Assembly: GCF_002154725.1 (NCBI RefSeq)
Contig: NZ_MTAW01000179.1
Span: forward strand, 1 to 64,000
Origin: Nostoc sp. 106C
Lineage (GTDB): Bacteria; Cyanobacteriota; Cyanobacteriia; Cyanobacteriales; Nostocaceae
DNA: 64,000 bases
Reading direction: 5' to 3'
Under the pieces are notes generated by a model. The model worked only from the letters and a program-made list of their open reading frames with translations. It did not search any database and was not told where the DNA came from. The translations under genes and the position numbers were made by a program. How positions within the stretch are numbered: position 1 is the stretch's first letter; every line of letters begins with the position of its first letter. This document shows, piece after piece, positions 26,536 through 31,611 of the stretch.

Positions 26536-27243
26536 TTAAGTGTGAACTGCACCATCAGGCATAATGGCTCCACTTAAATTAGCTCCAATGAGTTTAACCA
26601 GAAGGCGCTCGCCAGAGCGAATCCGCGCACCTGTTAAATCAGCTCCCCGCAAGTCAGCGCCACTGAGGTCTGCTCCAATTAAATTAGCAGAGCGCAAATT
26701 TGCCTCTCGGAGATCGGCTAAAAGTAGGTTAGCCCGAAATAAATTTGCTTCCGATAAATTTGCACCTCTCAAATTAACTTTGTGCATAAAAGTATCGCTG
26801 AGATTTGCACCACTCAAGTTCGCAAAACTCAAGTTTCTTCCGGATAAATCTTTGTTACTCAAATTAGCTCGACTAAAGTCTTGACCACTCAAATCGGAAT
26901 TTTTCTGTGTTGGTTGATGGTTTGTTTGCGGTGGCTTTTTTGGTTGAGGTGGTGGTGGTGGAGAGTCAGGCGGTGAGTAAGGTTGTGAGTAACGCGGTGA
27001 GTAAGTTGCAGGTTGATGCTTAACTTCAGGTTGATGCTTAACTTTTAGAGAACGCAATTTATCACGTGCTTCATTAATTGCTTTAATTTTGTCTTGTGCC
27101 TTTTGTTGTAAACGGAGATTGTCTTGCGGAATGCGATCGGGGTGCCACACAAAAACCAAATCTTTATAAGCCTGGTTCACTTCCTCAAGTGTTGCACCAG
27201 GCTCTAATTCCAAGGCTCTATAATACCGTTCCAACTCGCTCAT
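26536..27243 (-). CDS. DnaJ domain - pentapeptide repeat protein
   Basis: A 235-residue protein. Residues 4-68 are a J domain with HPD in VWHPDRIPQ. A Pro/Gln-rich linker (about 75-110) follows. From about 115 to 225 there are some twenty pentapeptide repeats (A/D/N-L-S/R-G/x-A-N/D type: ANLSN, KDLSG, RNLSF, ANLSG). Pentapeptide repeats form a right-handed beta helix. Cyanobacteria carry many such proteins, but coupling one to a J domain suggests a scaffold that recruits DnaK. It stands alone on the minus strand. Confidence 0.85.
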   Translation of the reverse strand: MSELERYYRALELEPGATLEEVNQAYKDLVFVWHPDRIPQDNLRLQQKAQDKIKAINEARDKLRSLKVKHQPEVKHQPATYSPRYSQPYSPPDSPPPPPQPKKPPQTNHQPTQKNSDLSGQDFSRANLSNKDLSGRNLSFANLSGANLSDTFMHKVNLRGANLSEANLFRANLLLADLREANLRSANLIGADLSGADLRGADLTGARIRSGERLLVKLIGANLSGAIMPDGAVHT

Positions 27244-27935: not shown

Positions 27936-28421
27936 CTATCCATTTCTCCATCGATTTATAGCTCTTAAATATGCTGCAACTGGAATTTGATAAACCTCAA
28001 TAAAAATCCAAACAATAATTGCTAAATGTAACAGAAAAGTTAATATAGTCCAGATATATGGTATCCAAGTAATAAATTGATGTGGAGATGGAGGAAAATT
28101 GTAAGCCACAATGCCAATCAAAGTTGTGGGCAAGAGTATAAAAGCAATTGCTGCTAACCCATAGCCCCAACCTAATTCCACCCCTTCTAACTGGGCTTCT
28201 GTCCAGCTAAAACCATTCCAAGACCAAATTAGCGGCGGTTGGCGGGAAGGCATCTTGATTTGCTGTTGTTCTAGGTTGACAGTAAAAATCTCTTGGCAGA
28301 AGTCACAAGCCATAGCTTCCATTAATGGCATCCGAGTAATCTTACCTACACGGCAGACTGGGCAAGGGTAAGCTCCTTGAGAGTCGAAAGATGTGGCTAA
28401 AATTTTAGAACGAGGCATCAT
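27936..28421 (-). CDS. Zinc-ribbon membrane protein, unknown function
   Basis: About 161 residues from the ATG at 28,421 (AGG is 5 bases upstream; a GTG at 28,436 is possible). The N-terminus has a zinc ribbon with CPVC and CDFC about 20 residues apart. After a Trp-rich stretch (LIWSWNGFSW) come two transmembrane helices (about 92-112 and 125-147) and a short basic tail. The arrangement is typical of small conserved cyanobacterial membrane proteins of unknown role. It is divergent from the DAHP synthase leader region. Confidence 0.65.
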   Translation of the reverse strand: MMPRSKILATSFDSQGAYPCPVCRVGKITRMPLMEAMACDFCQEIFTVNLEQQQIKMPSRQPPLIWSWNGFSWTEAQLEGVELGWGYGLAAIAFILLPTTLIGIVAYNFPPSPHQFITWIPYIWTILTFLLHLAIIVWIFIEVYQIPVAAYLRAINRWRNG

Positions 28422-28712
28422 AAAACCTAGTGGCACTAATAATGTGATTGGGCTGCCGCGGAATTTGACAGGAATGATGAATTGCTAGATTGTTTAGAGT
28501 TCATCAATATCCTGTTACCCATGACCCAAAAATAGTTGTAAGTTTATATAATTTCTACGGTTATAAGTCAGGAAAACGTCTTGACAGGCGCAATAGTACT
28601 GAGTTTAACCCTTTTTCAAGAGTTGTGGAGCTATTGACTCCTCCAACTGGGTCTGTTATCGTGACTTATATATAAGGATTACATCAAAATTATCTAGTTG
28701 CGTACACTAAAA

Positions 28713-28769
28713 ATGTTCAACAGCAAATCTTACTTTTATTTTTGGTTTAAGGCGGTTCACCGGCGGTGA
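28713..28769 (+). CDS. Aromatic-rich leader peptide 1 (attenuator of DAHP synthase)
   Basis: An 18-codon frame encodes MFNSKSYFYFWFKAVHRR. Seven residues are aromatic and YFYFWF is an unbroken run at codons 7-12 (28,731-28,748). Its last codons contain the 5' arm of the antiterminator. There is no clear Shine-Dalgarno, so it may start close to the transcript end or be leaderless. Its sole purpose is probably to sense charged tRNAs for Phe, Tyr and Trp. It is too short for routine gene callers. Confidence 0.8.
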   Translation: MFNSKSYFYFWFKAVHRR

Positions 28770-28804
28770 ATTAGTTTCCTAATGGAAACCGCCAGGTGAA
28801 CCGC
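28752..28804 (+). promoter_or_regulatory. Antiterminator hairpin, module 1
   Basis: GCGGTTCACC (28,752-28,761) pairs perfectly with GGTGAACCGC (28,795-28,804). Inside, GGCGGT pairs with ACCGCC and TTTCC with GGAAA. The outer 3' arm shares CCGC (28,801-28,804) with the terminator, so only one of the two can form. Confidence 0.8.
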
Positions 28805-28833
28805 AGAGCAAACTCTGCGGTTTTTGTTTTTTT
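28801..28833 (+). terminator. Attenuator terminator, module 1
   Basis: CCGCAGAG (28,801-28,808), loop CAAA, CTCTGCGG (28,813-28,820), then TTTTTGTTTTTTT. A textbook intrinsic terminator ahead of the second leader peptide. Confidence 0.9.
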
Positions 28834-28849
28834 GGAGCATTTCATCGTC

Positions 28850-28912
28850 ATGATCTATTTCGGTAGTTGGTTTTATGGTTTTTACTTTTGGCCCAGAGCA
28901 AGTTCCAGGTAA
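28850..28912 (+). CDS. Aromatic-rich leader peptide 2 (attenuator of DAHP synthase)
   Basis: A 20-codon frame reads MIYFGSWFYGFYFW then PRASSR. Nine residues are aromatic (codons 3, 4, 7, 8, 9, 11, 12, 13 and 14). GGAG at 28,834-28,837 lies 12 bases before the ATG, immediately after the first terminator's T-run. The last three sense codons AGT TCC AGG contain the 5' arm of the second antiterminator. The mix of Phe, Tyr and Trp codons matches the three end products of the pathway opened by the downstream enzyme. Confidence 0.85.
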   Translation: MIYFGSWFYGFYFWPRASSR

Positions 28913-28950
28913 ATAGCGTCATGTCGATGATTTAGAACGCGCCCGGAACT
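28901..28950 (+). promoter_or_regulatory. Antiterminator pairing, module 2
   Basis: AGTTCC (28,901-28,906) can pair with GGAACT (28,945-28,950), the 5' arm of the second terminator; two more G-C pairs are possible past a one-base bulge. Between them is a small hairpin GTCATGTCGATGA. The pairing is weaker than that of module 1. Confidence 0.6.
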
Positions 28951-28976
28951 CTCAAGCTGAGTTTCCGGGCTTTTTT
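28941..28976 (+). terminator. Attenuator terminator, module 2
   Basis: GCCCGGAACTC (28,941-28,951) pairs with GAGTT-T-CCGGGC (28,959-28,970) with one bulged base, then TTTTTT. It lies 45 bases before the DAHP synthase start codon, so termination here would silence the gene. Confidence 0.9.
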
Positions 28977-29021
28977 GTTATCAACCTCACTCTCATAACC
29001 TCATACAAGGAGAATCTCACA

Positions 29022-29894
29022 ATGATTAATGCTCAACTCGCTGCTCAATCTCATCCTAGCCACCAAACAATTGTCAAACTCTCAGAAACAGTCAGCTTCG
29101 GAGGAGAAGAAATAGTAATTATCGGTGGTCCCTGCACAGTTGAAAGCTTAGGGCAAATGCAGACAGTCGCGCAAAAGTTAGCTGCTGCACCTGTACAGGC
29201 TTTACGTGGCGGCGTCTACAAACCTCGCACATCTCCTTACGCTTTCCAAGGAATGGGAGAAGAAGGACTGGAAATTTTGGCAGCGGTGCGATCGCGTTAC
29301 AATATCCCAGTTGTGACTGAAGTTATGTCAATTGCCCAAATTGAAATAGTTGCTGCCCATGCTGATATGCTGCAAATTGGTAGCCGTAATATGCAAAACT
29401 TCGATTTGCTCAAAGCTTTGGGACAAGCTGGGAAGCCGATACTACTCAAGCGAGGACTGGCGGCGACAATTGAAGAATTCGTCATGGCAGCTGAATATAT
29501 TTTGAGCCACGGCAATCCTCATGTGGTACTCTGCGAAAGAGGTATTCGTAGCTTTGATAATTACACTCGCAATGTGTTGGACTTAGGAGCAGTAGCTGCT
29601 CTCAAACAAATCACTCATCTACCTGTGATTGTAGATCCATCCCATGCTGTGGGTAAAAGAGAATTAGTAGCACCTATGGCTAAAGCTGCTGTTGCTTGTG
29701 GGGCAGATGGATTAATTATCGAGTGTCACCCAGAACCAGAAAAATCTGTTTCCGATGCACGTCAAGCACTATCTTTAGAAGATATGGTGAATCTAGTTAA
29801 TAGTTTAAAGCCTGTAGCCGCAGCAGTTGGGCGGAATATCTCAGAATCAATCGGGGTGGGTTTAAAACCTGCCCCGATTTTTTGTGCTGCTTAA
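29022..29894 (+). CDS. aroF: 3-deoxy-7-phosphoheptulonate (DAHP) synthase, type I-beta
   Basis: A 290-residue aldolase-type enzyme that joins phosphoenolpyruvate and erythrose 4-phosphate, the entry to the shikimate pathway. Motifs are GPCTVES near 46, RGGVYKPRTSPYAFQG near 74, TEVMS near 109, ILLKRG and DPSHAVGKRE near 217, with metal ligands in the Cys, His, Glu and Asp positions of the I-beta (KDO8P synthase-like) class. The core begins within 30 residues of the start, so there is no N-terminal ferredoxin-like or chorismate-mutase regulatory domain. AAGGAG lies 10 bases upstream. Two tandem attenuators precede it, so control is likely at transcription. Confidence 0.9.
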   Translation: MINAQLAAQSHPSHQTIVKLSETVSFGGEEIVIIGGPCTVESLGQMQTVAQKLAAAPVQALRGGVYKPRTSPYAFQGMGEEGLEILAAVRSRYNIPVVTEVMSIAQIEIVAAHADMLQIGSRNMQNFDLLKALGQAGKPILLKRGLAATIEEFVMAAEYILSHGNPHVVLCERGIRSFDNYTRNVLDLGAVAALKQITHLPVIVDPSHAVGKRELVAPMAKAAVACGADGLIIECHPEPEKSVSDARQALSLEDMVNLVNSLKPVAAAVGRNISESIGVGLKPAPIFCAA

Positions 29895-29957: not shown

Positions 29958-30954
29958 ATTGCGTCTAGATTTACTGAGTATAAAGACTTGAAGAACCGCT
30001 TTTCTGCATCTTGGGATCATCATCTGTTGCACCTTTTTGAAGAATTAGTATTCTTGTAAACTGATGACTTTCAATCCTGCACAATTTCCAATATGGCAAT
30101 TGGATGATTGCGATCGCAGTTTGTATTACCAAGTAGGTATGCTAACAAATTTCTACAGTCTGAAGAGCATAATGCGTTAGTTAGCCTGCCTGTTCAAAAA
30201 TTCTGCCATTAGTATTTAATCATAAAGCACAGTTCGGTTGCCTATTCCTAGTCTAGCGCCAAGATATAGCACTAAGGATGAGTTTTGCTGCCTTGCATAG
30301 CTACTCAAAGATTGAAAACGTAGCGACAAAATCCGAAGTGGCACTAAATATTTTTACTTACAAAGAGTTATAGAGATTTCATCACTCTAAAGATAGGTAA
30401 TTGATTTAAAATTGGTTGGAGCAACTATTCTTTATCTTAGCTTCACAGATAATTGTGATTTTTTAATCAGCCTTTGTATAATCTAGAATCTCATGATGAA
30501 TGCTTTAAATACTTAAAGTATTGAAGGGTGTATTTTGTTTACTGTGCTATAACAGAATGAACATCAGTCATGCTTTTGATAGATTTTTGTGCTGGAATTA
30601 CCTGCTTAATAGCCATTTTTTATACCTTTAAATATAAAACACTGACTTAATATTCTCTTAATAAAACCAGATATGATACTTAAAAAGCTTAGTATTTAAG
30701 AGTATTAGTAAGACTTTATACGAACTTTATGGACTAATGTATTTTTTTTACAAACACTTTATGTAAGTCTAGAGTAAACACTTAGATAATGAAAATATCT
30801 GCGACAATGAGATTAACATGTCCTTGTTATTGCTACTAACAGCAAATATAAATAAGGAAGTGAATGTTTACTAACTCCTGAAGAGCTAATGTTTGCAACT
30901 CATTAGGAAAGTTTGCAGATAGCAAAAATCTAGTAATTCTGGATGGAGAAAATT
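29958..30954. other. Intergenic, about 1 kb
   Basis: AT-rich and without a supported gene on either strand. It provides a long upstream region for the PEP-CTERM gene, where promoters could lie, but I cannot mark one with confidence. Confidence 0.4.
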
Positions 30955-31611
30955 ATGAATTTCAAATCAATAGGCTTGGGAATAGCTTTGACTTGTGGCA
31001 CATTGTCCTTAGGTAGCACTGTCGGTGTATCACAAGCTCAAGCAGCTACAGTAGGAAGTGCAAATTTTGCGGGACTGCTGAGTTTTCAGAATCAATCCCA
31101 GGTTAATCCACTCACTGAAACACTCAAATTCAGTAATCCAGGAACTGTTTTGAGTGCTGATGGTATATTTGCTGGTTCAACCAATGTTACCATCGGCACT
31201 GGCAACCCCTATAGCCTGCTATTGAATAAAATTTCTAACGTCAATGCTACATCAGCTCTATACACAGCAAATTTAGCTTCCATAACTGACCCATTCCTTA
31301 CTTTTAGTAATGGGATAAAGTTTCAGGTAACTAGCATATCCAACTTTCTGAGAACGACCGAATCAAACACTACCAGTATTGATGGCTTTTCGATCGCTGG
31401 AAAATTCTACAATGGTGTAAATGCCGTAGCTGATGGAGCTATCACTGGACAACAGAAAAAAGGCGCTATTGGCAGTTACTCATACAGCATAGTTGCTACA
31501 GATGTTCCTGAACCTTTAACTATCTTAGGTTCAGCAACGGCTTTAGGATTTGGCGCTGCCTTGAAGAAGAAATACGCCAAAAAGCAGAGTAAAGAAAAGG
31601 CAATGGCTTAA
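30955..31611 (+). CDS. PEP-CTERM sorting-domain protein, exported
   Basis: A 218-residue secreted protein. The ATG at 30,955 is preferred because GGAG lies 6 bases upstream. A signal peptide (FKSIGLGIALTCGTLSLGST ending near AQAA) is followed by a Ser/Asn/Thr-rich beta-type body with no cysteines. The C-terminus has the PEP-CTERM signature VPEPLTILGS, a hydrophobic helix (ATALGFGAAL) and a basic tail KKKYAKKQSKEK. Such proteins are cleaved and sorted by exosortase and often go to the outer layer. The role is unknown. Confidence 0.85.
   Translation: MNFKSIGLGIALTCGTLSLGSTVGVSQAQAATVGSANFAGLLSFQNQSQVNPLTETLKFSNPGTVLSADGIFAGSTNVTIGTGNPYSLLLNKISNVNATSALYTANLASITDPFLTFSNGIKFQVTSISNFLRTTESNTTSIDGFSIAGKFYNGVNAVADGAITGQQKKGAIGSYSYSIVATDVPEPLTILGSATALGFGAALKKKYAKKQSKEKAMA

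Follow-up and report, generated by a model that had tools for sequence, protein, structure and literature searches.

The DNA analysed here, a stretch of 64,000 nucleotides from Nostoc sp. 106C (the window), carries on its plus strand a gene for 3-deoxy-7-phosphoheptulonate (DAHP) synthase, the first enzyme of the shikimate pathway. Two short open reading frames (ORFs) rich in aromatic codons lie upstream of this gene, each followed by an intrinsic terminator. The features of the locus, with the evidence from which each was assigned, are as follows.

28634 to 28662, plus strand: predicted promoter, TTGACT-17-TATCGT, with TG 5' of the -10 box (promoter scan)
28713 to 28769, plus strand: leader 1, MFNSKSYFYFWFKAVHRR and stop, 7 aromatic among 18 residues (ORF translation, orthologue loci)
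28752 to 28804, plus strand: module 1 antiterminator, the end of leader 1 (about 28752-28764) with about 28792-28804 (folding, alignment, pairing tests)
28798 to 28833, plus strand: module 1 intrinsic terminator, stem 28798-28823 and T-run to 28833 (terminator scan, alignment)
28834 to 28837, plus strand: GGAG, possible ribosome-binding site of leader 2 (read from the sequence)
28842 to 28931, plus strand: stem of the leader 2 start region (about 28846-28859) with a segment after the stop codon (about 28912-28931) (minimum free energy fold)
28850 to 28912, plus strand: leader 2, MIYFGSWFYGFYFWPRASSR and stop, 9 aromatic among 20 residues (ORF translation, orthologue loci)
28901 to 28950, plus strand: module 2 antiterminator, 28901-28909 (the end of leader 2) with 28942-28950 (pairing tests, stall folds)
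28941 to 28976, plus strand: module 2 intrinsic terminator, stem 28941-28970 and T-run 28971-28976 (folding, terminator scan, alignment)
29022 to 29894, plus strand: DAHP synthase, 290 amino acids, catalytic core only (TIGR01361, NF006421)

The catalytic domain PF00793 is present in the encoded enzyme and the ferredoxin-like domain PF18152 is not matched; its best-scoring solved relatives include the 262-residue, core-length chains 4c1k and 1zco. PF18152, which mediates feedback inhibition in relatives, is carried by both DAHP synthase paralogues of the same genome. Many relatives likewise have, next to the locus, a divergent 166-residue ORF without a Pfam or NCBIfam match (27936-28436) and, farther out, a gene encoding DnaJ and pentapeptide domains (26536-27243). 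The ORF at 30943-31611 starts with a signal-like sequence and has a C-terminal PEP motif ahead of a hydrophobic stretch; in this it resembles a PEP-CTERM exported protein.

Module 1 spans 28713-28833 and follows the same logic as module 2 downstream of it. The folds of modules 1 and 2 exceed those of all 200 shuffled sequences (z -4.6 and -3.7, respectively). A preliminary description of this DNA had proposed, for module 2, a GGAG directly 3' of the first T-run, a 20-codon frame with nine aromatic residues, an AGTTCC in its last codons complementary to a GGAACT in the terminator, and a second intrinsic terminator 45 bases before the structural gene. All of these are borne out: AGTTCC lies at 28901-28906 and GGAACT at 28945-28950, and 45 nt separate the end of the second T-run (28976) from the DAHP synthase ATG (29022). 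Purine runs resembling the GGAG are present in many aligned relatives; for leader 1, no clear Shine-Dalgarno sequence is seen in Nostoc sp. 106C. The module 2 antiterminator of Nostoc sp. 106C contains one A-C mismatch, which locus L002 lacks. The stem of the leader 2 start region pairs in 79.6% of the alignment cells of 30 near relatives, with equally many two-sided changes in slid controls; such a stem could prevent re-initiation and promote termination in the absence of a loaded ribosome.

The chance of finding such an arrangement was estimated from 20,000 dinucleotide shuffles of 28501-29021, with an aromatic-rich ORF defined by an ATG start, 12-30 codons, at least six aromatic residues and an aromatic content of at least 35%. 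At least one such ORF occurred in 219 shuffles, and two separate ones in a single shuffle. On both strands of the 64-kb window there are three aromatic-rich ORFs, and a terminator follows within 90 nt for leaders 1 and 2 only. The preliminary claim that the same logic found twice is unlikely to be due to chance is upheld; its premise that the two sequences are unrelated does not hold entirely, as an FYFW core is common to both leader peptides. The module 1 model also weakly matches module 2 in two Fischerella loci (L236, 568-696, E 0.0028; L246, 599-727, E 0.00025), which hints at a possible origin of the two modules by duplication.

Conservation of the arrangement was followed in two samples, 58 genomes of relatives, 32 of which have an orthologue at a minimum of 76% identity, and 291 genomes of the class, 102 of which have one at E≤1e-120, the orthologue being absent in 189 at this cut-off. 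With six orthologue-bearing genomes common to both samples, 128 loci were obtained, and the omission of G016, where the gene lies at a contig end and the modules on a different contig (L155), left 127 upstream regions. An insert interrupts the start of leader 2 in L155. Three more genomes, in which both modules lie at the ends of contigs (L164, L165, L168), were omitted from the counts. Leader 1 is found in 125 of the 127 loci, being missing in L048 and L142, and leader 2 in all 127. The latter was recognised by script in 123 loci, by an earlier leader script in L138 and by eye in L055 and L057, to which L029 is added, where the leader 2 frame reads past the usual stop. In-frame starts of leader 2 are all non-ATG in L055, its ATG lies 42 codons 5' of the stop in L057, and its aromatic content is low in L073. 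Both modules are recognisable in 125 of the 127 loci, in one of which (L029) module 2 is altered. Among named close relatives, the models of both modules match all 77 loci with enough upstream DNA out of 80 fetched, these loci being near kin of the sequences from which the models were built. One of the 77 has module 1 cut by the locus edge, and the three others (L175, L185 and L193, with about 50-100 nt of upstream DNA) were omitted from the counts. The closest named protein copies belong to Tolypothrix, Mojavia, Calothrix and Nostoc.

The aromatic character of the leaders is preserved as well. Across the loci the aromatic fraction of leaders 1 and 2 is 35% and 38%, respectively, and Phe, Tyr and Trp are all present in 123 of 125 leaders 1 and 119 of 123 leaders 2 among those found automatically. 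In the 30-row alignments, gaps aside, codons that are aromatic in the reference encode an aromatic residue in 234 of 259 cells of module 2 (213 identical, 13 synonymous and 8 coding for another aromatic residue, against 25 non-aromatic) and in 178 of 201 cells of module 1 (150 identical, 18 synonymous and 10 other-aromatic, against 23 non-aromatic). Changes at non-aromatic codons are mostly non-synonymous, by 104 to 38 in module 2 and 130 to 22 in module 1. Third-position variation within the FYFW core was considered as a further coding signal and rejected as circular, since the core had been chosen by its amino acids. Both leaders nearly always contain all three aromatics, so that codon content alone does not suggest a specialisation of the two gates for different amino acids.

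The alternative pairings were assessed by covariation in the alignments and by a pairing test. By covariation, judged against shuffles that ignore kinship among the aligned rows, the 13-pair antiterminator of module 1 is paired in 92.3% of cells of the 30-row alignment and shows two-sided changes at four pairs, in eight cells altogether (a level reached by none of 500 shuffles), and the terminator, paired in 97.5% of cells, varies little. By the same measure, the module 2 terminator is paired in 95.9% of cells with 15 two-sided cells (again matched by none of 500 shuffles), and the module 2 antiterminator in 94.6%, being near-invariant and weak in covariation (42 of 500 shuffles as high). The pairing of the leader end with the 5' arm of the terminator was tested against dinucleotide shuffles, at first with a narrow arm, which was then widened to the module 1 helix seen in the fold. 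With the wide arm, module 1 pairing was significant (p≤0.05) in 112 of 115 loci (mean z -3.96), as compared to 39 of 115 with the narrower arm (mean z -1.41). For module 2, the corresponding figures are 94 of 125 (mean z -2.67), with 31 loci not significant, and 98 of 125 (mean z -2.75). Segments 2 (the last codons of the leader), 3 and 4 (which form the terminator) change together in L035, and segments 2 and 3 in L145. In L082, about 60-100 nt 5' of the gene, the leader end AGTCCTGGG pairs with CCTGGGACT through two G-U wobbles, leader 2 and its terminator having drifted together.

Automatic detection of the terminator succeeded for module 1 in 115 and for module 2 in 125 of the 127 loci. The 12 module 1 misses include the two loci without the module and seven others for which a terminator after leader 1 is listed, and a hairpin with a T-run was seen by eye in both module 2 misses (L048 and L082). 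An attenuator is recognised by a leader ORF with clustered codons for the product of the pathway, an intrinsic terminator between leader and gene, and a mutually exclusive antiterminator with its 5' strand at the leader end, and all three are present in the modules described here.

A few loci carry one module only. L048 and L142 have module 2 without module 1, and in five genomes of one family (L159-L163) module 1 stands before a divergent copy of the gene and no leader 2 is found; the two of these five copies that were scanned (L159, L160) encode DAHP synthases without PF18152. Two further loci are decaying. In G169 (L158), the gene copy into which module 1 leads is truncated. In G024 (L154), module 1 precedes an inserted ORF that carries resolvase and MerR domains, then an ORF without a Pfam match, and no close DAHP synthase orthologue is found in that genome. 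These exceptions indicate that module 1 belongs to the DAHP synthase gene and that evolution can reduce the tandem to a single gate. In L002, modules 1 and 2 are separated by about 95 nt of additional sequence that contains short repeated words.

The 58 genomes of relatives hold no strong site for the module models away from the gene, except for the G024 remnant and the split G016 locus. Upstream of the paralogues of about 350 residues, an aromatic leader was found in none and a terminator in one of eight regions, which come from seven genomes and represent few of the many paralogue matches. No aromatic leader with a terminator was found in the same genome upstream of four genes of the chorismate-binding family or of one prephenate dehydratase gene. 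Weak module 2 matches in the class sample disclosed no leader on inspection in G077 (a tRNA and a hairpin) and G224; further weak matches occur in G123, G134 (C179) and G328.

The position of promoter-like sequences bears on whether one transcript would cross both modules. The predicted promoter at 28634-28662 agrees with the consensus at 9 of 12 positions and is weak evidence alone, with two sites in the region against 1.4 expected by chance. In the relatives, 118 of 121 loci have a TTGAC no more than 140 nt upstream of leader 1 (at a median of about 70 nt), seven have one between the leaders and six have one after leader 2, the intervals having mean lengths of 134, 99 and 116 nt, respectively; the six other loci, without an automatically found leader, were omitted from this count. 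A stricter two-box scan places a promoter upstream of leader 1 in 37 of the 121 loci, between the leaders in none and after leader 2 in three. It had been stated beforehand that a strong promoter between 28976 and 29022, bypassing both modules, would speak against the proposal; the promoter scan of the window detects no such site there on the plus strand. Transcription is thus predicted to start upstream of leader 1, with no start predicted after the second terminator. No Rho was matched in the genome of Nostoc sp. 106C at E≤1e-5 by a search that was positive in 10 of 14 control genomes.

Ribosome stalling was modelled by letting the ribosome cover 10 nt past the A-site codon, with the RNA made only up to the 3' arm of the terminator. 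In this model, stalls at codons 3-14 of leader 2 in Nostoc sp. 106C leave the antiterminator free, and the energy, -13.3 kcal mol−1 at Trp14, falls off to -7.7 and -4.6 at codons 15 and 16. The antiterminator of leader 1 remains strong as far as codon 10 (-30.6) and loses strength at Trp11 (-22.3) and Phe12 (-17.1); from codon 13 onwards a different fold takes its place. The stall energies along both leaders suggest that the last aromatic codons lie near the point at which the switch would flip; the energy trend, followed in 115 and 120 loci, is due in part to length. Trp11 of leader 1 lies nearer to its segment 2 than Trp7 and Trp14 of leader 2 do to theirs, and module 2 may thus read Trp better than module 1.

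When the full-length modules were folded at equilibrium, the module 1 antiterminator persisted for stalls up to codon 10, and at Trp11 and Phe12 it coexisted with a near-complete terminator hairpin of 9 to 11 pairs. The module 2 terminator was present at every stall position tried in Nostoc sp. 106C and, in L002, at all stalls except codons 11 and 12. Antitermination in module 2 would consequently rest on the order of pairing, and we infer that it needs the earlier pairing to persist.

Taken together, these observations are best explained by a tandem of classical ribosome-mediated attenuators, both of them reading Phe, Tyr and Trp, which very probably precedes the DAHP synthase gene. This reading, already put forward in the preliminary description, is supported by the presence of both modules in nearly all loci, by the alternative pairings, by the occurrence of TTGAC almost only upstream of module 1, and by the modelled stalls at aromatic codons, with which the antiterminator strand stays free. 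A single transcript would start upstream of leader 1 and cross both attenuators before reaching the gene. In each module, a ribosome would translate the short ORF with its many Phe, Tyr and Trp codons. When charged aromatic tRNA is plentiful, the ribosome would reach the stop codon and cover segment 2, segments 3 and 4 would form the terminator, and transcription would stop. When any aromatic tRNA is short, an earlier stall would let segments 2 and 3 pair ahead of the synthesis of segment 4, and the polymerase would continue. Leader translation, stalling on uncharged tRNA, termination in vivo and the kinetic order of pairing are the steps of this scheme that we infer.

The single-module loci also fit the possibility that one module regulates and the other is a relic or a constitutive reducer of leak, the more so as each module occurs alone somewhere, and as the module 2 antiterminator of Nostoc sp. 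106C has a mismatch and loses to the terminator at equilibrium. Such a division is unlikely, since both modules keep the leader and, where tested, the terminator and the alternative pairing in most of the 127 loci, and compensatory changes are seen in each of them. The leaders might instead act mainly in another way, on translation or through released leader RNAs or peptides in trans, like peTrpL, which is a precedent for a trans-acting leader in the accessible part of its source (PMC7298713), and aromatic sufficiency would indeed yield terminated leader RNAs. The conserved cis pairings of the leader end with the terminator arm are needless for a trans role and render it very unlikely as the main one, and the two modes can coexist.

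A riboswitch or a T-box in place of a translated leader would likewise account for a conserved structured leader RNA with terminators 5' of an amino acid pathway gene. The region 28000-29500 has no Rfam match at E≤1, and the in-frame aromatic content is kept across the loci, which makes this explanation extremely improbable. Two translated attenuators in series remain the preferred reading of the locus.

The polymerase would have to pass both gates, so that the two leaks would multiply and the response would be steeper than with a single gate; a steeper, low-leak response of the double gate is put forward here as a hypothesis. The absence of PF18152 from this isozyme, as against its presence in both paralogues, suggests that attenuation may stand in for allosteric control. 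The two considerations can be combined in the proposal, for and against which we see equal weight, that the same-signal tandem works as an AND gate composed of two OR sensors, both gates opening on a shortage of any aromatic amino acid, and that this steep switch of low leak replaces the missing ferredoxin-like, probable feedback domain. Transcriptional control would then be tied to a shikimate-entry isozyme without the ferredoxin-like domain of its two paralogues, which is of relevance to the engineering of aromatic products in cyanobacteria. The added value of the second gate is directly testable, also through the natural single-gate versions.

For cyanobacteria, a 2016 paper states, in the part available, that there were no reliable data on an attenuation mechanism (PMC4833913). 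A literature search that covered few subscription papers and preprints found neither this locus nor leader-peptide attenuation in cyanobacteria described. The present results constitute a strong comparative case for attenuation in a phylum where such switches were considered unproven, and attenuation here would require leader translation to keep pace with transcription. The parts are textbook ones; the same-signal tandem, its wide conservation and the phylum appear to be new within that limited search, and two serial gates reading the same amino acids, kept in 125 of 127 loci, represent a rare design.

The classical attenuators trpL and pheL of E. coli are single gates that read one amino acid each, unlike the arrangement described here with two gates, three aromatics and another phylum. 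As in those systems, according to the accessible part of a later account, end-product codons stand in a leader ORF and the antiterminator alternates with the terminator (PMC11802643). The nearest known leader is aroR upstream of aroF in Corynebacterium glutamicum, in which stalling raises transcription (PMC11802643, on Neshat 2014). In the same partial account, aroR is one leader with Phe-Tyr-Phe that responds to Phe and not to Tyr (PMC11802643). Both systems have an aromatic-codon leader peptide 5' of a DAHP synthase gene; the present locus differs in having two leaders, nearly always with Phe, Tyr and Trp, and in its phylum.

Two gates in one leader are known from other systems. The rimP leader carries tandem terminators (PMC2965389), metE of B. 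clausii is preceded by tandem riboswitches (PMC3641672), and two attenuator units lie upstream of a supraoperon of Streptococcus pneumoniae (PMC1173090). The locus resembles all three in that a single leader carries two termination gates or attenuators; the available parts of these sources describe no two leader peptides for the same amino acids with a terminator each. The mgtCBR leader mRNA of Salmonella contains two short ORFs, mgtM and mgtP, each of which steers an attenuation-like response (PMC3641672). Their signals, ATP and proline, act additively, and the mgtCBR leader is contrasted in the accessible part of that paper with a leader having two terminator sites (PMC3641672). The present locus shares with mgtCBR the two short ORFs in one leader mRNA. 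Unlike mgtCBR, its two leader ORFs use the same codon types, with no indication of different signals, and each leader has a terminator of its own.
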